Shown here: positions 246 through 27,742 of the stretch, piece by piece
How the letters are laid out: the number at the start of each line of letters is the position of its first letter
How positions within the stretch are numbered: position 1 is the stretch's first letter
Assembly (NCBI GenBank): GCA_014896255.1
Contig: JADBKT010000020.1
Location: 1 to 64,000, forward strand
Reading direction: 5' to 3'
DNA from: Hydrogenibacillus sp.
GTDB lineage: Bacteria; Bacillota; Bacilli; Thermicanales; DSM-22653
DNA: 64,000 bases
The notes under the pieces: generated by a model
Told to the model about the DNA's origin: nothing
Database searches by the model: none
Seen by the model: the letters and a program-made list of their open reading frames with translations, nothing else
Made by a program: the position numbers and the translations under genes

Positions 246-275
246 TTGACAACAATCCGTAAAGCGGCGTACAAT
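246..275 (+). promoter_or_regulatory. SigA-type promoter of the trp supraoperon
   Basis: TTGACA at 246-251 and TACAAT at 270-275 are separated by 18 bases. Transcription would start near 282, giving a leader of about 260 nucleotides before trpE that holds the GAG repeats and the terminator described separately. Confidence 0.8.
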
Positions 276-345: not shown

Positions 346-407
346 TGGTTGGGTTGAGTCGAGCGTGAGTGTTGAGTTTGAGGAGAGCATGGTTGAGCGG
401 AGCTGAG
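346..407 (+). promoter_or_regulatory. TRAP (MtrB) binding site in the trp leader RNA
   Basis: Nine GAG triplets lie between 356 and 407 (356, 361, 367, 374, 380, 385, 395, 400, 405), mostly 2-4 bases apart. A TGG at 390 fills the one long gap with correct spacing, and TGG 346 and GGG 351 extend the array upstream. TRAP in Bacillus binds about eleven (G/U)AG repeats spaced by 2-3 bases when loaded with tryptophan. Bases 380-393 can also pair with 510-523 over 14 bp (one G-U) to form an antiterminator, so TRAP binding would prevent antitermination. The mtrB gene is not in this window. Confidence 0.85.
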
Positions 408-514
408 CCGCCGACGCGTGTGGAATCTTTGACGAAGGATTTCCGCACAGGACGCTTCCTGCCCCGTGGGTTTGCGGGCGGGAAGCGAGGTCGCCGCTTT
501 ATGGGAGCCACCAT

Positions 515-545
515 GCTCTTCTCCATCGGGAGGAGGGCTTTTTTT
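515..545 (+). terminator. Attenuator (intrinsic terminator) of the trp leader
   Basis: A 10-bp stem (515-524 with 529-538, including two G-U pairs) is followed by seven Ts (539-545). Its 5' arm lies within the segment pairing with 380-393, so terminator and antiterminator are mutually exclusive. The 3' arm carries the GGAGGAGGG ribosome binding site of trpE, so the hairpin may also hide the start site. Confidence 0.85.
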
Positions 546-2031
546 GTACGGTCGTTTTTCGCTCGCGTATGAACCGCGGGTGCGGCGATTTTATGCCGAT
601 CACTGGACGCCGACCCTCGCTTATCAGGCGCTCAAAGACCGCCGCCCGACGCTTTTGGAGAGCGCGGAGTTCGGCGAGCGCGTCGGGCGCTACTCGGTCT
701 TGGCCTTCGATCCGCTGGCGACATTCGTCTACCAAGATGGCGCGGCGACGATCGCGTATCGGGCGAATGACTTGATGCATGGAAGGGAGACGGCGGTCGT
801 CGAGGTTCCGGGGACGCCTCAGGCCACGCTGGAGCTTTTTTTGCAAGGGATCCGCCGTTGTTCCGAAGCGCCCGAACCGGAGACGCCGTTCGTCGGCGCG
901 GCGATCGGCGCGTTTGATTTTGAGCTGGCGTATGCCGTCCTGGAATCGGCGGATGGCGCAGCGCCATCGCGCATCGCCGGTGAGCCGCTCATTCGCCTGT
1001 TCGTCCCCCGGCGGCTGATCGTCTTCGACCATCTCCGGCAGACGCTCGATTACGTCGTCCTCGATCCGGTCCTGGAGCGGGGTGTTCGGCCGGAGGCATC
1101 GCGGTTCGAAGCCGAGGTGCAGGAACTTCAGGCGCGGCTTGAGGCAGCCCGACTTACGCCGCTTGTGGCGGTGGAGCCCGATGCGCTCGAGATTCGGTCC
1201 AATTTCACCCGCGAAGCGTTCATCGACGCCGTGCGCGCGGTTCAGGAGGAAATCCGAAGCGCCGGGGCGGAGCAGATCGTGTTCTCGCAGCGCTTCGACG
1301 TCCAAACGGATGTCGAGCCGTTTCTCGTCTATCGCTTTTTGCGTTCCAACAACCCGTCTCCGTATATGTATCTCCTCGATTTGGGCGACGACGTCTATGT
1401 CGGCAGTTCGCCGGAGAGTTTGGTGCGCATCGAAGGCCGGACGGTTTCTACGCGGCCGATCGCCGGCACCCGGCCGCGGGGGCGGACGCCGGCGGAGGAT
1501 CGGCGTTTGGAGGCGGAGCTTTTGGACGACGCCAAAGAAACGGCGGAGCATGAGATGCTCGTCCGCCTCGCCGAAGACGATCTTCGGCCGATCGCCCGAT
1601 CGGGTTCGGTCGCTGTGGATGCCTATCGGACGGTAGAGCGCTATTCGCATGTGATGCATCTCGTCTCTCATGTCTCCGCCGTGCTTCGAGACGGCGTTTC
1701 GCCGCTTGCGGCCGTTTTCCGTCTGTTTCCCGCCGGGACGGTGAGCGGCGCGCCGCGGAAAGCGGCCTTATCCGCCATCGCCCGGCTGGAGCCGGAACGC
1801 CGCGGCGTGTACGGCGGCGCCGTCGGCTGGATCCACCCGGAGGGCGCGACGGATCTCGCCATCGCCATCCGCACGATTCATTTTCATCCCGGCGGCGCTT
1901 CCGTGCAGGTGGGGGCGGGGATCGTCGCCGCCTCGTCGCCGGAGCGCGAATACGAGGAGACGGTGAACAAAGCGCAAGCGCTGCTCGAGGCTCTCGCCCG
2001 GGCAGCGGCGCATCGGGCCGCCGTCGGATAA
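544..2031 (+). CDS. trpE: Anthranilate synthase component I
   Basis: TrpE converts chorismate and ammonia (from a glutamine amidotransferase partner) to anthranilate, the first step of tryptophan synthesis. The 495-residue product has the typical length. Chorismate-binding motifs are visible: RPIAGTRPRG near residue 304, the acidic ELLDDAKETAEHEMLV stretch after it, PAGTVSGAPR near 395 and the GAGIVAASSPEREYEET end. The TTG at 544 is chosen because AGGAGG at 531-536 sits seven bases upstream; longer readings run through the terminator hairpin. No trpG follows, as in Bacillus, where the subunit is encoded elsewhere and shared with folate synthesis. Confidence 0.95.
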   Translation: MYGRFSLAYEPRVRRFYADHWTPTLAYQALKDRRPTLLESAEFGERVGRYSVLAFDPLATFVYQDGAATIAYRANDLMHGRETAVVEVPGTPQATLELFLQGIRRCSEAPEPETPFVGAAIGAFDFELAYAVLESADGAAPSRIAGEPLIRLFVPRRLIVFDHLRQTLDYVVLDPVLERGVRPEASRFEAEVQELQARLEAARLTPLVAVEPDALEIRSNFTREAFIDAVRAVQEEIRSAGAEQIVFSQRFDVQTDVEPFLVYRFLRSNNPSPYMYLLDLGDDVYVGSSPESLVRIEGRTVSTRPIAGTRPRGRTPAEDRRLEAELLDDAKETAEHEMLVRLAEDDLRPIARSGSVAVDAYRTVERYSHVMHLVSHVSAVLRDGVSPLAAVFRLFPAGTVSGAPRKAALSAIARLEPERRGVYGGAVGWIHPEGATDLAIAIRTIHFHPGGASVQVGAGIVAASSPEREYEETVNKAQALLEALARAAAHRAAVG

Positions 2032-2067: not shown

Positions 2068-3126
2068 GTGCGCGACATCTTAAAAAAGCTGGCGCGAGGA
2101 GAGACGCTTTCGCAAAGTGCGGCGCGCTCGGCGATGGAGGCGCTGATCGGCGGTGAGGCGCACGATGTGGAGATCGCGGCGTTCTTCGGGCTGCTCCGCG
2201 GTCGCGGAGAGACGCACGAGGAGATCGCCGGTTTTGCGCAGGGGCTTCGTGCGTATGCGCGCGCCGTCAGAGCGCCGGAGGAGGCGATCGATACGGCGGG
2301 GACCGGCGGAGACGGCGGGCGGACGTACAACGTCTCTACGGCAGCGGCCCTTGTCGCCGCGGCGGCCGGCGTCCCCGTCGTCAAGCACGGCAATCGCGCC
2401 GTCTCCGGCCGCTCGGGGAGCGCGGACGTGCTCGGCGCCCTCGGCGTTCCGACCGAGCTCGGACCGGAAGCGGCAGAAGCGGTGCTGGCGCGGGAAGGGT
2501 TCGTCTTTTTGTTCGCGCCGCTTTATCATCCGGCCCTCTCAAGGGTGCAGCCGGTTCGCCGGGCGCTCGGCATTCCGACGGTGATGAACGTGCTCGGCCC
2601 GCTGGTCAATCCGGCCCGGGTCAAGCGGCAGGTGGTCGGCGTCGCGGACCGGCGCTATCAGCTCGCCGTCGCCAGGGCGCTTCAGCGCGTCGGCGTCACC
2701 CGCGCCCTCGTCGTCTCGTCGGCTGACGGCCTGGATGAGATTTCGGTCAGCGCGCCGACGCGCGCGGTGGAGATCGACGGCGAGACGCTGAAAACGTACG
2801 ATCTTACGCCGGAAGCGCTCGGATTGCCCTTGTTCCCGGGCGGTTCGTACGCTTCCGGTACTCCGGAAGACAGTGCGCGGGTGATCGAGCAGATGCTCAC
2901 GCCGACACCCGACGCCGGCGGGGCGAAGATGAATGCCGATTACGCGCTCCTTCTCGCCAACGCCGCCGCCGCGCTCTACGTCGGCGGAAAGGCGGCATCG
3001 CTTCGGGACGGGGTGCGGCTGGCGGAAGAGACGATCGAGAGCGGGCGGGTGCTCGATCTTTTGGCGCGGTTGAAACGGACGGCGGACGGCGTCGGGCGTT
3101 CGACGGTGACGGCGCATGATGCTTGA
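2068..3126 (+). CDS. trpD: Anthranilate phosphoribosyltransferase
   Basis: Transfers the phosphoribosyl group of PRPP to anthranilate. The 352-residue product has the glycine-rich PRPP loop GTGGDGGRTYNVSTA (from about residue 78), the KHGNRAVSGRSGSAD anthranilate/PRPP motif and the NVLGPLVNPA segment of the TrpD fold. The GTG start follows a strong TAGGAGGGAGAGG site. It lies 36 bases after trpE and overlaps trpC by 11 bases, consistent with one transcript and coupled translation. Confidence 0.97.
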   Translation: MRDILKKLARGETLSQSAARSAMEALIGGEAHDVEIAAFFGLLRGRGETHEEIAGFAQGLRAYARAVRAPEEAIDTAGTGGDGGRTYNVSTAAALVAAAAGVPVVKHGNRAVSGRSGSADVLGALGVPTELGPEAAEAVLAREGFVFLFAPLYHPALSRVQPVRRALGIPTVMNVLGPLVNPARVKRQVVGVADRRYQLAVARALQRVGVTRALVVSSADGLDEISVSAPTRAVEIDGETLKTYDLTPEALGLPLFPGGSYASGTPEDSARVIEQMLTPTPDAGGAKMNADYALLLANAAAALYVGGKAASLRDGVRLAEETIESGRVLDLLARLKRTADGVGRSTVTAHDA

Positions 3127-3904
3127 GGCCATCTTGCGTTATAAGCGCTTAGAGGTGGAAGAGCTTAGGCGGACGCACGGCGCGGCCATCACGCGGGCGG
3201 TCGAAAAAGGGATGGTCCCGAACGAGCGGCGTTCGCTCCGCGCGGCGGTCGTCCGGCGCCGGCGAAGGGTGGCGCTCATCGCCGAGGCGAAGAAGGCCAG
3301 TCCCTCCAAAGGCGTCATTCGCGAAGATTTTCAGCCGCTGGAGGTGGCCTTGGCGTATCGCGCGGCGGACGTCGATGCGGTGAGCGTGCTCACCGACCGG
3401 CCGTCGTTTCTCGGCGACGTGCTCTATCTTCCGCTCTTTTCCCGGGTCACGGGGAAGCCGGTGTTGCGTAAAGATTTTATCATCGATCCCTTGCAGCTGT
3501 ATGAAGCGCGCGTCTACGGCGCCGACGCGGTGCTTCTCATCGTCCGGGCGCTTGGCGACGATGCGCTCCGGAGGCTCTCCGACGAGGCGGCGGCGCTCGG
3601 ATTGGAGACGCTCGTCGAGGTGCACGACGAATCGGAGCTGGAGCGCGCGTTGGCGGCCGGGGCGACGCTCATCGGCATCAACAACCGCAATCTCGACACG
3701 TTCGAGACGGATCTGTCGACGACGGCGCGGCTCATCGAGCGGATTCCCGAGGATGTGCTCGTCGTGAGTGAGAGCGGGATCGACACGCCGGCTTCGATCG
3801 CGGCGCTTGAAGCGCTGGGGGTGGATGCGGTGCTGGTCGGCGAACATCTGATGCGTAAGCGCGATCTTGTCGGCGCGGTGAAGGCGCTGGTGGACGAAGG
3901 ATGA
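3116..3904 (+). CDS. trpC: Indole-3-glycerol phosphate synthase
   Basis: Closes the indole ring from carboxyphenylamino-deoxyribulose phosphate. The 262-residue TIM-barrel protein has AEAKKASPSKG near residue 55 (catalytic lysine region), RKDFIIDPLQLYEARVYGAD in the middle, IGINNRNLDTFETDL near 186 and VSESGI near 218. It starts at an ATG inside the end of trpD and its TGA overlaps the ATG of trpF, so translation is probably coupled through the three genes. Confidence 0.97.
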   Translation: MMLEAILRYKRLEVEELRRTHGAAITRAVEKGMVPNERRSLRAAVVRRRRRVALIAEAKKASPSKGVIREDFQPLEVALAYRAADVDAVSVLTDRPSFLGDVLYLPLFSRVTGKPVLRKDFIIDPLQLYEARVYGADAVLLIVRALGDDALRRLSDEAAALGLETLVEVHDESELERALAAGATLIGINNRNLDTFETDLSTTARLIERIPEDVLVVSESGIDTPASIAALEALGVDAVLVGEHLMRKRDLVGAVKALVDEG

Positions 3905-4641
3905 CGGGCCGAAAAGCGACGGACGCGCGGCAGACGCCGCTCACCCGTTCGACGGCGATCAAAATTTGCGGGCTCCGTGATCAGGCGGCGGTCGACGCCG
4001 TCGCCGCCCTCGGCGCGGCGGTGGCGTATGCCGGTTTCGTGTTTGCCCAAAGCTCACGGCACATCACACCGGAGGCGTTTCACGCTTTACGCTTGGAACG
4101 CCTCGCCGCCCGGCCGGTCGGCGTGTTCGTCCATCCGCGACCGGAAGACGTCGAGCGGGCGATGGAAGACGGGCGGCTGATGATGCTCCAGCTTTCCGGC
4201 GAAGAGCCGGCGGAAGACGTCGAACGCCTGCGTCGGCGCTTCAAACGGCCGGTGATCAAGGCGTTCTCCGCGATGGACGGGCCGGAAGGGCTTAAGGTTT
4301 GGCTTGCCGGCGGGCTGCCGCCGTTCGACGTGCTGCTCATCGACGCCAAGCGCCCGGGCGTCTACGGCGGCAGCGGACGGCGTTTCGACTGGGCGCTGAT
4401 CCCCGAATGGCGTGCCGCCGCTCTGGAATGGGGCGTTCCGCTGTGGATCGCCGGAGGGCTCGATGCGGACAACGTCGGCGCGCTCGTCCGGCAGTACCGG
4501 CCGGCGGGGGTGGACGTCTCGAGCGGGGTGGAGACGGCGGGCGTCAAGGACGCCCAGAAGATCGCCCGTTTTGTCCGGGCGGTTCAGGTGGCGGACGACG
4601 ACCGGGCGAAGGCGGACGCCGGTCGTGCGGACGGGGCTTAA
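3901..4641 (+). CDS. trpF: Phosphoribosylanthranilate isomerase
   Basis: Performs the Amadori rearrangement between the TrpD and TrpC steps. The family's KICGLRD motif is at residues 21-27, so this protein carries an N-terminal extension of about 18 residues compared with most TrpF. Further motifs are the LLID segment and GGSGRRFDW near residue 150, [10 protein letters not shown] near 183 and DVSSGVET near the end. The ATGA overlap with trpC supports the start. The last 20 residues are charged and poorly conserved. Confidence 0.95.
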
Positions 4642-4682
4642 GCGCGGTATCGCGGCATAGACGTGACAAAGGAGGTTCGGCT

Positions 4683-5934
<1,252 letters not shown>

Positions 5935-5945
<11 letters not shown>

Positions 5946-6696
5946 ACGCATCGTCCGCGCCTTTCAGACGGCGAAAACCGATCCGGCGTTCATCCCGTTC
6001 GTCATGGCCGGCGATCCGGATCTTCCGACGACGGCGCGCGTTGTCCGCGCGCTGGCCGACGGCGGCGCGGCGCTGATCGAGATCGGCGTGCCGTATTCCG
6101 ACCCGCTCGCCGACGGGCCGGTGCTCCAAGAAGCGGCACTCCGGGCGCTTCGCGCCGGGACGACGCCAAAGGACGTGCTTGAGCTCGTCCAAAGCGTGCG
6201 CCGTACGGTAGATATTCCGATCGTCCTGCTTCTCTATGTGAACGCCGTGTTGCAATACGGCAGCGAAGCGTTCGTCCGCGAGGCGGCTTTGGTCGGCGTC
6301 GACGGACTGATCGTGCCGGATCTGCCGATCGAAGAAAGTGAATCTCTCCTGACGCTGACCAAAGCGCATGATGTGGCGCTCGTCCCCCTCGTCGCGCCGA
6401 CTTCCACAGGGCGTCTGGGACGCATTTTGGCCGATCGGGAGGGTTTCGTCTACGTCGTTTCCTCGCTCGGCGTGACCGGGAAGCGCGATGCGCTCGATCC
6501 GTCATTGGGCGCGCTGATCCGGACCGTGCGCTCGGAGACGGCGCTCCCGATCGCCGTGGGGTTCGGCCTCTCGCGCCGGGAACAGCTGGTCATGCTTCGA
6601 GGCATCGCCGACGGGGCGATCGTCGGAAGCGCCCTCGTCGATCACCTGGCCCGCGGCGGAACGGTGGAAGCGTGGCTGGAGGAGATGATCGGCTGA
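5935..6696 (+). CDS. trpA: Tryptophan synthase alpha chain
   Basis: Cleaves indole-3-glycerol phosphate and channels indole to TrpB. The 253-residue TIM barrel has PFVMAGDPD, the catalytic glutamate and aspartate in [19 protein letters not shown], and the phosphate-binding VGFGLS and GAIVGSALV near the C-terminus. The ATG lies inside the end of trpB, next to a GGAAGGGAGCGG site. A gap of about 100 bases to hisC follows. Confidence 0.97.
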
Positions 6697-6705
6697 GGAA
6701 AACGG

Positions 6706-6745
6706 TTTTCAACCGGGGCATTCTATGGTATCATTTTGGTATGAT
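6706..6745 (+). promoter_or_regulatory. Possible internal promoter(s) before hisC
   Basis: TTTTCA at 6706-6711 is 17 bases from TATCAT at 6729-6734, preceded by a TGG extended -10. A second extended -10, TGGTATGAT, lies at 6737-6745. These would give hisC-tyrA-aroA expression independent of tryptophan attenuation. Prediction by eye only. Confidence 0.4.
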
Positions 6746-6797
6746 GTCTATGATCATTTAAAGCGCAAAAGCGCTGAGCGAAAGGCGGATTTATCGC

Positions 6798-7958
6798 ATG
6801 ATCGTACGCATGATGCCGATGGATGCCCCGATCTACGAACCGGGAAAGCCGATCGCGGACCTTCAGGCGACCTACGGACTCGCCGACGTCGTCAAGCTGG
6901 CGAGCAACGAAAATCCGTACGGCCCTTCCCCCCGAGTGCGGGAAGCGCTGGCGGAGGCCCTTCAGGCCGACGGTGCCGAGGCGCTTTGGCGCTATCCGGA
7001 CGGCGCGGCGCGCGCGCTTCGGCGCTCGCTCGCCGATCGCTACGGCCTCTCCGTGGAACAGGTGGCCATCGGCGCCGGGGCCGACGAACTGATTCAGATG
7101 ATCGCGCTGCGTTTTTTGTACGGCGGCGGCGTTTCCGTGATGGCGGAGACGACGTTTCCGATGTATCTGATCGCCACGCGCATCGCCGGCGGCACGCCGC
7201 GCCTCGTGCCGATGGCGGAGGACGGCGGGGTCGACCTCGCGGCCCACGCCGCTTCTGTCGACGAGGCGACGCGCATCGTCTGGCTGGCCAATCCGAACAA
7301 CCCGACGGGGATGATGTTCGGCCGACAGGCATGGGAAGGCTTTTTGTCCCGCGTCCCGGACGATGTGCTTGTTGTGCTCGATGAAGCATACGCCGAGTTC
7401 GTCACGGACGCCGATTACCCCGATGGGCCGCGCTGGATCGCTCGGCATCCGAACGTCGTCGTGCTGCGCACCTTCTCGAAAGCCTACGGGCTGGCGGGGC
7501 TTCGGGTCGGGTATGCGCTCGGCGCGCCGGAGATCATCGCCGAGCTCGAGCGCGTCCGCAAACCGTTCAACACGTCGACGCTCGCCCAGCGGGCGGCCGC
7601 CGTCGCGCTTACGGACGAGGCGCACGTGGCGTTCGTCCGGGAAGCGAATCTAAAGGCCCGAGAAGCCCTCGCCGAGGCGCTTTTGGCACGAGGGTTACGG
7701 CCGTTCCCGTCGCAGACGAACTTTCTGTACGTCCCCGGCGTCGACGGGCGCCGACTGGCCGCGTCCCTGGAGCCGCACGGCGTGATCGTGCGTCCGGCTC
7801 CCGGCGGCGTGCGCATCAGCGTCGGCACCGAGAGCGAAAACGCCCGCTTGCTCAAGGCGCTGGACGCGCTTATGGCCGATCCTGAGGCAGCGGCGGCGGC
7901 GCTGGGCGCAAATCATGCGGCAGACGTGATGGGGGCCGAGCGGAGCCATGAAGCATGA
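6798..7958 (+). CDS. hisC: Histidinol-phosphate aminotransferase (also aromatic aminotransferase)
   Basis: A 386-residue class I/II PLP aminotransferase of the HisC family: SNENPYGPSP near residue 36, GAGADELI near 95, NPNNPTG near 170, and the PLP lysine in TFSKAYGLAGLRVGY (about K228). In Bacillus this enzyme serves both histidine synthesis and the last step of phenylalanine/tyrosine synthesis, which explains its place between trpA and tyrA. ATG 6798 follows GAAAGGCGG. It overlaps tyrA by 11 bases. Confidence 0.95.
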   Translation: MIVRMMPMDAPIYEPGKPIADLQATYGLADVVKLASNENPYGPSPRVREALAEALQADGAEALWRYPDGAARALRRSLADRYGLSVEQVAIGAGADELIQMIALRFLYGGGVSVMAETTFPMYLIATRIAGGTPRLVPMAEDGGVDLAAHAASVDEATRIVWLANPNNPTGMMFGRQAWEGFLSRVPDDVLVVLDEAYAEFVTDADYPDGPRWIARHPNVVVLRTFSKAYGLAGLRVGYALGAPEIIAELERVRKPFNTSTLAQRAAAVALTDEAHVAFVREANLKAREALAEALLARGLRPFPSQTNFLYVPGVDGRRLAASLEPHGVIVRPAPGGVRISVGTESENARLLKALDALMADPEAAAAALGANHAADVMGAERSHEA

Positions 7959-9192
7959 ACGTCGGCTAAACGGCGCGGCCCATCCCCTGACGGCGGCGGA
8001 CGGGCCGCGCGAGGCGGCGGATAGGGCCGTCCGGTCCCAACCGGAAAAGGGCGGGAACGGACCGGCGTGCGCGGTCGTCGTCGGCATGGGTTTGATCGGC
8101 GGCTCACTGTCGGCGGTGTTGCGCTCAAGCGGGCTCATCGTCTTCGGCGTCGACCAACTGCCGGCCCGCGCCGAGCGGGCCCGCGAGCGCGGCCTGATCG
8201 ACACCGCCGTCCGCATGGAAGACGCCGCGACAACGCTTGCCGAGGCGGATCTCATCGTTCTGGCGTTGCCGGTGATGGCCATTCACCGCTTTTTGGACGA
8301 GCTCGCCTGGATGACGCTCAAGCCCGGGGTCATCGTCACCGATGTCGGCAGCACCAAGCGGTCCATCGTCGAGCGCGCCGCGGCGCGTTTTGCCGGCCGC
8401 GACGTGCGCTTCATCGGCGGGCATCCGATGGCCGGGTCGCACAAATCGGGCGTAGAGGCGGCGCACGTCGATCTGTTTGAGAACGCCTACTTTGTCCTGT
8501 GCCCAGGTCATGCGGCCACGGATGCCGATGTCGAGCGGCTGAAGACGTGGCTTAAGCCGGCGCGGGTGAAGTGGCTCGTTTTGGATCCGGCCGAACATGA
8601 CCGCGTCGTCGGTCTGATCAGCCATTTTCCGCACCTCGTGGCGGCGCTCCTCGTCCACGCCGTCGCCCGAAGGGAAGCGGAAAGCCCGCTGTATGCGATG
8701 CTCGCCGCCGGAGGGTTTAAGGACATCACGCGCATCGCCTCCTCCAACGCGGAGATGTGGCGGGACATCGTCCTCGACAACCGGATGGAGCTTTTGGGCT
8801 TGTTGGAGGACTGGGAGCGGATGACGGCCGAGATCAAGGCGGCCATTGCGGCGGAAGACGGAGCGCGGATGCTCGCCTTTTTTTCCGGTGCCGCGCAGTT
8901 TCGCGCCCGTCTTCCGGAGCGCCGGCCGGGGGCGCTTCGGCCGCTCTTTGATTTGTTTGTCGATATTCCCGATCGACCGGGGGAGATCGGGCGACTCACG
9001 ACGCGTCTGGGAGATGCGGGGATCAACTTGACGAACATTGAAATTCTGGAATTGCGGGAGGATGTGTTCGGCGTCGTGCGCTTGGCGTTTCGTAGCTCGG
9101 CCGATCAGGAACGTGCCTCCGCGTTGCTGGCCGCGTCGGGTTATCGGGTCTACGTCTTTGTGAACGGGGAGCCGAAGGAGGTGCACGCATGA
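7948..9192 (+). CDS. tyrA: Prephenate dehydrogenase with C-terminal ACT domain
   Basis: Oxidatively decarboxylates prephenate to hydroxyphenylpyruvate with NAD+. The Rossmann motif VVGMGLIGGSL is near residue 45, followed by DVGSTK, GGHPMAGSHKSGVEAA and HDRVVGLISHFPHLVA, all typical of TyrA. Residues from about 330 onward (DIPDRPGEIGRL) form an ACT domain, a likely tyrosine-sensing site. The first 40 residues are a low-complexity extension, so the true start could lie downstream, but ATG 7948 overlaps hisC and no better start is seen. Confidence 0.94.
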   Translation: MKHERRLNGAAHPLTAADGPREAADRAVRSQPEKGGNGPACAVVVGMGLIGGSLSAVLRSSGLIVFGVDQLPARAERARERGLIDTAVRMEDAATTLAEADLIVLALPVMAIHRFLDELAWMTLKPGVIVTDVGSTKRSIVERAAARFAGRDVRFIGGHPMAGSHKSGVEAAHVDLFENAYFVLCPGHAATDADVERLKTWLKPARVKWLVLDPAEHDRVVGLISHFPHLVAALLVHAVARREAESPLYAMLAAGGFKDITRIASSNAEMWRDIVLDNRMELLGLLEDWERMTAEIKAAIAAEDGARMLAFFSGAAQFRARLPERRPGALRPLFDLFVDIPDRPGEIGRLTTRLGDAGINLTNIEILELREDVFGVVRLAFRSSADQERASALLAASGYRVYVFVNGEPKEVHA

Positions 9193-10667
9193 GCGAGGTG
9201 CGCATCCGCCCGGCAAAGCGCCTTTACGGTACGCTTCGCGTTCCCGGCGACAAATCGCTCTCTCATCGGGCGCTCATCCTCGCTGCGCTGGCGGACGGGG
9301 CGTCCAGGCTCCATGGTCTTCTGGCGGGAGCCGATATTTTCTCGACGGCGCGCATTTTAGAAGCGTTCGGGGTGCGGATGACGCCGTTTATGAACCAGGA
9401 CGACGGTGCGCGCGGATCGTTCGGCATGTTGGCCGAAAACAGCATAGACGACTTTCACAGGGTCGTCGTCGATGCGCATGCGAGCGTGTGGTCGGCCGTC
9501 GTCGAAGGCCGCGGGTTTCACGGGCTCATGGAACCGCGGCACGTGCTCGATGCCGGCAATTCCGGCACGACCGCGCGCCTCATGCTGGGGCTTCTCGCGG
9601 CGCAGCCATTTTTTGCCGTGCTGAGCGGCGATGATTCGCTGATCCGCCGGCCGATGCGCCGCGTCGTCGACCCGCTCAGCCGGATGGGGGCGCGATTCGA
9701 CGGTCGGGAAGGCGGCGACAGGCTCCCCATCGCCGTGCGCGGCGGACGGCTTACGCCGATCGACTACCGCCTGCCGGTGGCGAGCGCGCAGGTCAAATCG
9801 GCGCTCATCCTGGCGGCGCTGTATGCCGAAGGCGAAAGTCGCATTATTGAACCGGGCCGAAGCCGCGACCATACGGAGCGGCTTTTGGCCCAATTCGGCC
9901 ATCCGCTCACGATCCGATCCGCGGCGACGGGCGAAGATCCGGCGGCGGAACGGACGATCGTCGTCCGCCCGGCCGTGCGTCTGTCTCCGCAAACATTGCA
10001 TATTCCCGGCGATTTTTCTTCGGCGGCGTTCTTCCTGGCGCTCGGTGCCGCCCATCCGGAAGCGGAGATTACGCTTTGCGGCGTCGGCGTAAACCCGACC
10101 CGAACGGGCATGTTGGACGTGCTTCAGGCCATGGGGGCCGATGTCGAGATGCGCTTCCACGAGGCTGATGCGGTCGAGTCCGCATACCGGGTGCAGGCGG
10201 CGGAAGGGGAACCGATCGCCGATCTGATCGTCCGCACCAGCCGGCTTACCGCTACGGAAATCGGTGGAACGCTCATTCCGCGGCTCATCGACGAGCTGCC
10301 GGTCATCGCCGTATTGGCTACGCAAGCCGAAGGGACGACGGTGATCCGCGATGCCGAAGAACTTAAGGTCAAAGAATCGGATCGCATCGGCGCCGTCGTG
10401 GAGCGGCTTCAGGCGATGGGCGCCCGTATTCGAGCGACGAGCGACGGGATGATCGTCGAAGGTCCGACGCCGCTTCGGCCTGCGCGTCTCGATTCGGCCG
10501 GCGACCACCGCCTGGCGATGGCTTTCGCGGTGGCGGCTTTGCTCGCCGGGGGAGGTCCCGACGCGGAGACGGTGATCGAGGGGAGTGAGGCGGCCGACAT
10601 CTCTTATCCGACGTTTTACGACGATCTGGTTTGCCTCGGCGCTGAAGTCGGAAAAGGAAATCGGTAA
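9189..10667 (+). CDS. aroA: 3-phosphoshikimate 1-carboxyvinyltransferase (EPSP synthase), with an insertion
   Basis: Joins shikimate 3-phosphate and PEP to EPSP in the common aromatic pathway. Conserved parts include PGDKSLSHRALILAAL at the N-terminus, DAGNSGTTARLMLGLLA near residue 121, SAQVKSALILAAL, VKESDR and the C-terminal GDHRLAMA. At 492 residues it is longer than the usual 425-445. Most of the excess lies at about residues 63-100, between the ILEAFGV strand and EGRGFHGL. ATGA overlap with tyrA supports the start. It is called aroE in older Bacillus nomenclature. Last gene of the supraoperon. Confidence 0.95.
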   Translation: MSEVRIRPAKRLYGTLRVPGDKSLSHRALILAALADGASRLHGLLAGADIFSTARILEAFGVRMTPFMNQDDGARGSFGMLAENSIDDFHRVVVDAHASVWSAVVEGRGFHGLMEPRHVLDAGNSGTTARLMLGLLAAQPFFAVLSGDDSLIRRPMRRVVDPLSRMGARFDGREGGDRLPIAVRGGRLTPIDYRLPVASAQVKSALILAALYAEGESRIIEPGRSRDHTERLLAQFGHPLTIRSAATGEDPAAERTIVVRPAVRLSPQTLHIPGDFSSAAFFLALGAAHPEAEITLCGVGVNPTRTGMLDVLQAMGADVEMRFHEADAVESAYRVQAAEGEPIADLIVRTSRLTATEIGGTLIPRLIDELPVIAVLATQAEGTTVIRDAEELKVKESDRIGAVVERLQAMGARIRATSDGMIVEGPTPLRPARLDSAGDHRLAMAFAVAALLAGGGPDAETVIEGSEAADISYPTFYDDLVCLGAEVGKGNR

Positions 10668-22017: not shown

Positions 22018-22479
22018 GATTGCAAAACTCTCAACCAACAAGGCATCCGAAAGCGCGGCGCGGTTCTACGCCCGTCTTCGACCGGCGTCGGCAACGCAGA
22101 GCGACCAAAAAACCCACGCCGCCAAGTCTTGAAAACGAAGCCTCAAGGCTTGGTGCGCGGGCCCAATTGCCTCATTCACCATGGCCACCACGGCGCGCCG
22201 ATCGCTCAACCGGTCCATTCCCTCCGCTTCCCGGAACAGGTCGGCGGACGGTTGGCGAATCGCGTTCGCCTGAGACTTCCCTGCATTAGCCGACGGGGTT
22301 AGCTGACGGGTAGGATGGCAGAGAAGGTCGCGCTGACTCATCCCTCTCGACGTCATCGTCGAGATTAACCCCAAACGATCGGGTCCCCCGCTCTCGGCCG
22401 TCGCCGAGATTAGGCCGTCTCACTGCTTTATGATCATTTTAATGTTTCACCCTCAGGATGACAAGTGTTAAATATGCAC
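22018..22479. other. 462-base region without a supportable gene
   Basis: Two overlapping open frames exist (22020-22289 plus; 22066-22374 minus). The minus frame ends in a plausible sequence (FREAEGMDRLSDRRAVVAMV, then NEAIGPAHQALRLRFQDLAAW) but has no ribosome site and no family I recognise. It could be a gene remnant. From 22420 the sequence becomes AT-rich, and AAGTG/CACTT arms occur at 22463-22482. Confidence 0.4.
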
Positions 22480-27529: not shown

Positions 27530-27569
27530 GAAGACAAATCGAATCATTGCGCATTTGAGCATCAGTGCC

Positions 27570-27660
27570 ACCACGGGAGCTCGGGGAGCCGGGCTGAGAG
27601 GGAAGCCGATCCGCTTCCGACCGTCGAACCTGCTCTGGGTAATGCCAGCGGAGGAAGGCG
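27570..27660 (+). ncRNA. TPP riboswitch (THI element)
   Basis: The two conserved blocks are present: GGGCTGAGAG at 27591-27600, the pyrimidine-sensing side, and GAACCTGCTCTGGGTAATGC with CCAGCG beyond it at 27626-27650, the pyrophosphate-sensing side. The variable P3 stem (GGAAGC...GCTTCC) lies between. Thiamin pyrophosphate binding would favour the downstream terminator at 27743-27773 and switch thiC off. Confidence 0.96.
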
Positions 27661-27742
27661 CAAAGGGCGAAACGCATCACGGGCTGTGGGTCTGATCGGG
27701 AACGCGTCGGTGCGTTCGCTCGTGCGTTCGTTCGAGGACGTA

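Follow-up and report, generated by a model that had tools for sequence, protein, structure and literature searches.

A TRAP-controlled trp leader in Hydrogenibacillus sp. in which a single hairpin probably acts as both attenuator and translational block

In a 64,000-nucleotide stretch of a Hydrogenibacillus sp. genome (referred to as the window), we identified a leader (283-545, + strand) ahead of a trpEDCFBA-hisC-tyrA-aroA operon that, as judged from RNA folding and comparison with related leaders, is probably controlled by TRAP through a single hairpin that would serve as both the attenuator and the block on trpE translation. In low tryptophan, TRAP would be unbound, and the Shine-Dalgarno-like GAG array of the leader would pair through 380-393 with a pyrimidine arm at 510-523. 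This antiterminator is predicted to block the hairpin 515-524/529-538, so that polymerase would read through and the Shine-Dalgarno sequence of trpE would be easier to open. In high tryptophan, TRAP would wrap 356-407, leaving the pyrimidine arm free to pair with the Shine-Dalgarno sequence; polymerase would then be released within a U7 tract that reaches into the start codon, and transcripts that escape termination would be made with the trpE ribosome site already shut. The same arm can pair with either partner because the array and the Shine-Dalgarno sequence are both GAG-rich. A sequence-only reading had described this leader as a TRAP attenuator; that identification holds, but the leader is not a simple B. 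subtilis-like attenuator, because the terminator is also the Shine-Dalgarno hairpin and the U-tract extends into the TTG start codon.

The trpE gene (544-2031, +) starts with TTG at 544, which agrees with the alignment to relatives and scored highest among the in-frame start candidates. Its best NCBIfam match is to the trpE model (E 2.2e-126), yet this match is under the curated cut-off. The rest of the trp supra-operon (2068-10667, +) was assigned by NCBIfam model matches, with trpD, trpC, and trpF starting at 2068, 3116, and 3901, respectively, trpB within an open reading frame at 4299-5945, trpA ending at 6696, hisC and tyrA starting at 6798 and 7948, and aroA at 9189-10667. A consensus scan identified a sigma-70-type promoter (TTGACA-18-TACAAT) at 246-275 (+) with 11/12 matches, compared to 0.2 such sites expected in shuffles, and its position predicts a transcript start at ~282. 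As in B. subtilis, trpEDCFBA lacks trpG. No trpG/pabA above the family cut-off was found in the source genome (assembly of 1.9 Mb, 92.5% complete) or in those of its relatives G002 and G003; either the gene is absent from these assemblies, or TrpE uses another amidotransferase or ammonia. A profile search of genome contigs with the TrpE alignment returned chiefly sequences from distant phyla and no close relatives. Elsewhere in the window, a c-di-AMP riboswitch (22272-22426, −) and a TPP riboswitch (27563-27673, +) scored above the Rfam cut-off.

The predicted TRAP-binding array spans 356-407 (+), with GAG at 356, 361, 367, 374, 380, 385, 395, 400, and 405. These nine exact repeats, all of which had been recognized in the sequence-only reading, are mostly spaced by 2-3 nt and lie upstream of trpE, as is characteristic of TRAP leaders with their about 9-11 (G/U)AG repeats. 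There is an extra overlapping GAG at 383 and no TAG, and TGG at 390 is a degenerate, in-phase tenth slot (385-390-395), giving ten slots in all versus eleven. The array score of 7.9 was never reached in 200 dinucleotide-shuffled windows of 64 kb searched on both strands (highest score, 4.8), and the second-best site in the real window scored 3.0. Arrays were found in all five genomes of the family, and TRAP arrays ahead of trpE are common across Bacilli; therefore, the GC-rich genome that had been emphasized earlier is by itself not the point. The bases 3′ of the array are G+C-rich and are predicted to form two stable hairpins, of 13 pairs at 418-448 (+) and of 14 pairs at 453-487 (+), both in the loop of the antiterminator. 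The latter had been reported as a 12-bp hairpin, and the former was not listed. A pattern search of the source genome yielded no convincing further TRAP targets.

An mtrB gene, for which the sequence-only reading had suggested a search, was found in the source genome (G000:C4; 1.6e-37). Its product matches the NCBIfam MtrB equivalog model above the cut-off and is the one TRAP encoded. The gene lies in the order folE-mtrB-hepS, like its counterpart in B. subtilis. All checked tryptophan- and RNA-contact residues are intact in this TRAP (E36, K37, D39, K56, R58, T25, T30, Q47, T49, and S53 are conserved). TRAP is present in 5/5 family genomes and in 273/399 sampled genomes of the class. We note that Ser53 is replaced by Ala in the TRAPs of G001 and G002 (L003 and L002, respectively), while it is Ser in the other 62 sampled genomes and in B. 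subtilis. As for other regulators, no TrpP was found in family genomes, and anti-TRAP appears to be absent, in that a B. subtilis query (approximate sequence) gave only weak hits, as expected of zinc-finger proteins like DnaJ. The array together with mtrB argues for TRAP over another attenuation system, such as a leader peptide with Trp codons, a T-box, or a PyrR-type RNA, and we consider such a system highly improbable: no Rfam match at the cut-off was found near the leader, the short open reading frames of the leader contain ≤2 Trp codons, none of them in a tandem run, and the weak PyrR match in its favor (window 423-547; 25 bits versus a cut-off of 54; E 0.21) was taken as chance.

In the TRAP-controlled leader proposed here, the 5′ strand of the antiterminator (380-393, +) lies inside the array and covers its sole degenerate slot, while the 3′ strand (510-523, +) shares 9 nt with the 5′ arm of the terminator. 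The helix has 14 pairs, including one G-U (383/520), and encloses a loop of 116 nt; its complementarity score is 12, compared to no more than 9 among 500 shuffles. The helix and its loop had been described exactly as we find them, and so had the coincidence of the array gap at TGG 390 with the antiterminator core. This coincidence extends to the family, as the antiterminator strand is within the array and covers the interrupted slot in all five leaders. When partial transcripts from 283 to ends at 523-530 were folded, the probability of the antiterminator was 0.93-0.94, and it fell to 0.00 once 356-407 was blocked, a comparison that the sequence-only reading had proposed. For the other four family leaders, the corresponding values were 0.96-1.00 with a free array and 0.00 with a blocked array. 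Thus, the array overlaps an antiterminator that in these computations excludes the terminator, as is characteristic of TRAP leaders. Once 529-538 is complete, the terminator beats the antiterminator at equilibrium, with a probability of 0.99. Because the complete terminator wins, the switch must be kinetic and act during RNA synthesis, a behavior that equilibrium folding cannot show.

Comparison of the family leaders supports the antiterminator helix. Among the four alignable leaders, 96.4% of the antiterminator cells are paired compared to 40-64% in slid controls. The covariation that the earlier reading had proposed looking for was observed as two-sided changes in three antiterminator pairs, compared to none in slid controls, in what is a modest sample of four sequences in which 66/500 shuffles match this number of two-sided pairs. 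Compensatory changes between genera affect pairs 391/512 and 393/510. We take the leader of G003, which represents a third genus, as a stronger argument for the helix than covariation: it has an unrelated 9-pair helix (GCTTGAATG/CATTCAAGC) at the array gap together with a different terminator, suggesting that the same layout has been rebuilt.

The terminator consists of a 5′ arm at 515-524 (+) and a 3′ arm at 529-538 (+) that form a stem of ten pairs (six G-C and two G-U) closed by the loop ATCG, with a predicted energy of −15.5 kcal/mol, followed by an uninterrupted U7 tract at 539-545 (+). The two arms and the seven Ts had been correctly located before. The 5′ arm is also the anti-Shine-Dalgarno arm, as 529-537 of the 3′ arm (GGAGGAGGG) is the Shine-Dalgarno sequence of trpE, located 6-7 nt before TTG 544 with a duplex energy of about −12.2 to −12.4 kcal/mol, and the U7 tract takes in the first two bases of this TTG. 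The terminator starts 107 nt past the array and ends 5 nt ahead of TTG 544, which places the U-tract 131 nt beyond the array. Among the terminator-like sites in the window, it is the sole one with an arm in a strong Shine-Dalgarno duplex before a long open reading frame. The terminator pairs are kept at 100% among relatives, and none has two-sided changes; therefore, it is full pairing and energy, and not covariation, that support the terminator. A conventional attenuator of the B. subtilis type, together with translation of trpE from another, unobstructed ribosome site, would account for the presence of TRAP, array, antiterminator, and terminator, but it fits poorly with the spacing of GGAGGAGGG to what is the best in-frame start candidate and with the TTG start codons of G004, G001, and G002 at the same position as TTG 544, and we regard it as very unlikely.

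For the hairpin with both functions, folding predicts that the state of the array affects access to the ribosome site. The predicted cost of opening the Shine-Dalgarno sequence is 5.6 kcal/mol when the antiterminator is formed and 12.0 kcal/mol when the array is blocked. Over the five family leaders, the costs are 3.1-7.4 and 8.7-16.2 kcal/mol, respectively, with a drop of 5.6-10.4 kcal/mol in the antiterminator state in 5/5 leaders. We dropped the idea that the antiterminator state just leaves the Shine-Dalgarno sequence exposed, since in the equilibrium model this sequence is mostly paired elsewhere whether the array is free or blocked (mean unpaired, 0.14 in the antiterminator state), and the opening cost alone falls.

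A survey covered 48 genomes in which a TRAP array precedes trpE (50 entries, of which two were duplicates). In 5/5 family genomes, the terminator hairpin is fused with the Shine-Dalgarno sequence, and its end lies 3-6 nt from the start codon. By contrast, 42 of the 43 non-family genomes have a separate terminator whose end is 31-117 nt upstream of the start codon, in a comparison that rests on five genomes on the family side. In the exception, G028, a Shine-Dalgarno hairpin is followed by TGA and then T7. Three further leaders outside the family (G043, G373, and G087) were automatically called fused, and these calls were rejected on inspection of the sequences, in which the U-runs are either poor or located past the start codon. 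In four family leaders out of five, no second terminator was found, while G004 has a hairpin of −16.5 kcal/mol with TTTTG 175 nt before trpE as a possible extra terminator. We found no description of a fusion of a TRAP terminator with the Shine-Dalgarno hairpin in the largely open-access literature searched.

The survey also bears on the alternative that the hairpin is purely translational, i.e., that it hides the Shine-Dalgarno sequence when TRAP is bound, with the U-tract as a by-product of the TTG start codon and no attenuation. While this alternative agrees with the distance of the terminator from the TRAP site and with the prediction, in a raw count of 37/47 TRAP trp leaders, that the arm hiding the trpE Shine-Dalgarno sequence pairs with the array before the Shine-Dalgarno sequence is made, three points weigh against it. 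The hairpin has the form of a textbook intrinsic terminator, with ten pairs of which six are G-C, a loop of four bases, and a U7 tract without interruption; the fused hairpins are followed by U5-U7 in 5/5 family genomes; and the single additional terminator candidate is that of G004. We consider a purely translational hairpin unlikely.

For dual control by the fused hairpin, the closest comparison is the trp leader of B. subtilis, which is 203 nt long and has a weak attenuator at +108-133 with an interrupted U-stretch (PMC3913778). The Shine-Dalgarno sequestering structure is separate from this attenuator (PMC12288461, PMC11255114), and attenuation and repression of trpE translation are distinct steps, served by pausing that NusA and NusG assist (PMC12288461). 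The two leaders have in common an mtrB-encoded TRAP, a GAG array overlapping the antiterminator, a competing terminator, and a Shine-Dalgarno sequestering hairpin. The leader described here differs in that one strong hairpin would do both jobs, with U7 running into the start codon: the terminator is neither immediately 3′ of the array nor far from the start codon, it is at the same time the sequestering hairpin, and its predicted energy and uninterrupted U-tract are not those of a weak terminator that needs TRAP (compare PMC3913778).

B. subtilis TRAP can terminate transcription even without the attenuator if an A+U-rich stretch follows the TRAP site (PMC3913778). Because the B. subtilis attenuator is weak and directly adjacent to the TRAP site, effects of TRAP on refolding and on polymerase are hard to separate there; a strong terminator located >100 nt from the TRAP site could offer a natural setting in which to test the original model of pure refolding. 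Given a strong terminator with an uninterrupted U-tract ~107 nt past the array, TRAP most likely acts here via RNA refolding alone and not by pushing polymerase. Similarly, the G+C-rich, hairpin-forming bases after the array and the remote U-tract make it unlikely that this strong terminator requires TRAP to act directly on polymerase. In B. subtilis, Glu60 of TRAP is the residue reported to push polymerase and to be needed for termination. Among 65 TRAP sequences, residue 60 is Lys in 53/59 other Bacilli and R/R/H/H/K in the family; as residue 60 is usually Lys, the E60K mutant of B. subtilis is similar to the common wild type. A link between loss of Glu60 and the fused layout was rejected, as B. 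subtilis was the only member of this sample with Glu. Some riboswitches control both transcription and translation; in the leader described here, the ligand sensor would be a protein ring on a GAG array.

Leaders outside the family suggest how the fused layout may have arisen. In G005, a sister lineage of the same order, the array contains GAGAAGAGCATAG, and a nearly complementary CTATGCCCTCTTCTC adjoins the Shine-Dalgarno sequence; this helix appears homologous to GAGCATGG/CCATGC of our leader. In contrast to our leader, G005 has a split layout, with a separate terminator (GCCGGGGAT..ATCCCCGGC) 62 nt before ATG and no U-tract after the Shine-Dalgarno hairpin. G021 and G173, from another family, have, as in our leader, T7 and a TTG start codon after the Shine-Dalgarno hairpin but also retain a canonical upstream terminator, and they look like an intermediate or a tandem design. 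G005 may thus serve as an outgroup, and G021 and G173 as intermediates for the gain of the U-tract. Because the arm is predicted to pair with the array in the 37/47 leaders mentioned above, its ancestral role was probably translational, and we infer as the likeliest history that a translational hairpin acquired a U-tract and that the upstream terminator was lost afterwards. The leader would then illustrate how a translational switch turns transcriptional through gain of a U-tract. For the full proposal that the switch of the family was rebuilt in this way, with loss of the upstream terminator, addition of a U-tract to the Shine-Dalgarno hairpin, and dual control by refolding without TRAP action on polymerase, we see the case for and against as evenly balanced.

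GAG arrays also occur at other genes in relatives. In G004, an array at 1491-1523 of L196 (G004:C15:28277-28309) is at and just before the likely TTG start codon of a trpB2-like gene and is a possible translational TRAP target. Perfect five-GAG arrays lie shortly upstream of TrpEG-fusion-like genes in L201 (G004:C18) and L198 (G001:C7); these two loci are very similar though from different genera, possibly reflecting transfer or a binning error. Finally, L181 and L182 have short GAG arrays at the ends of pabB-like genes, just before trpG/pabA, that are reminiscent of the B. subtilis trpG site.
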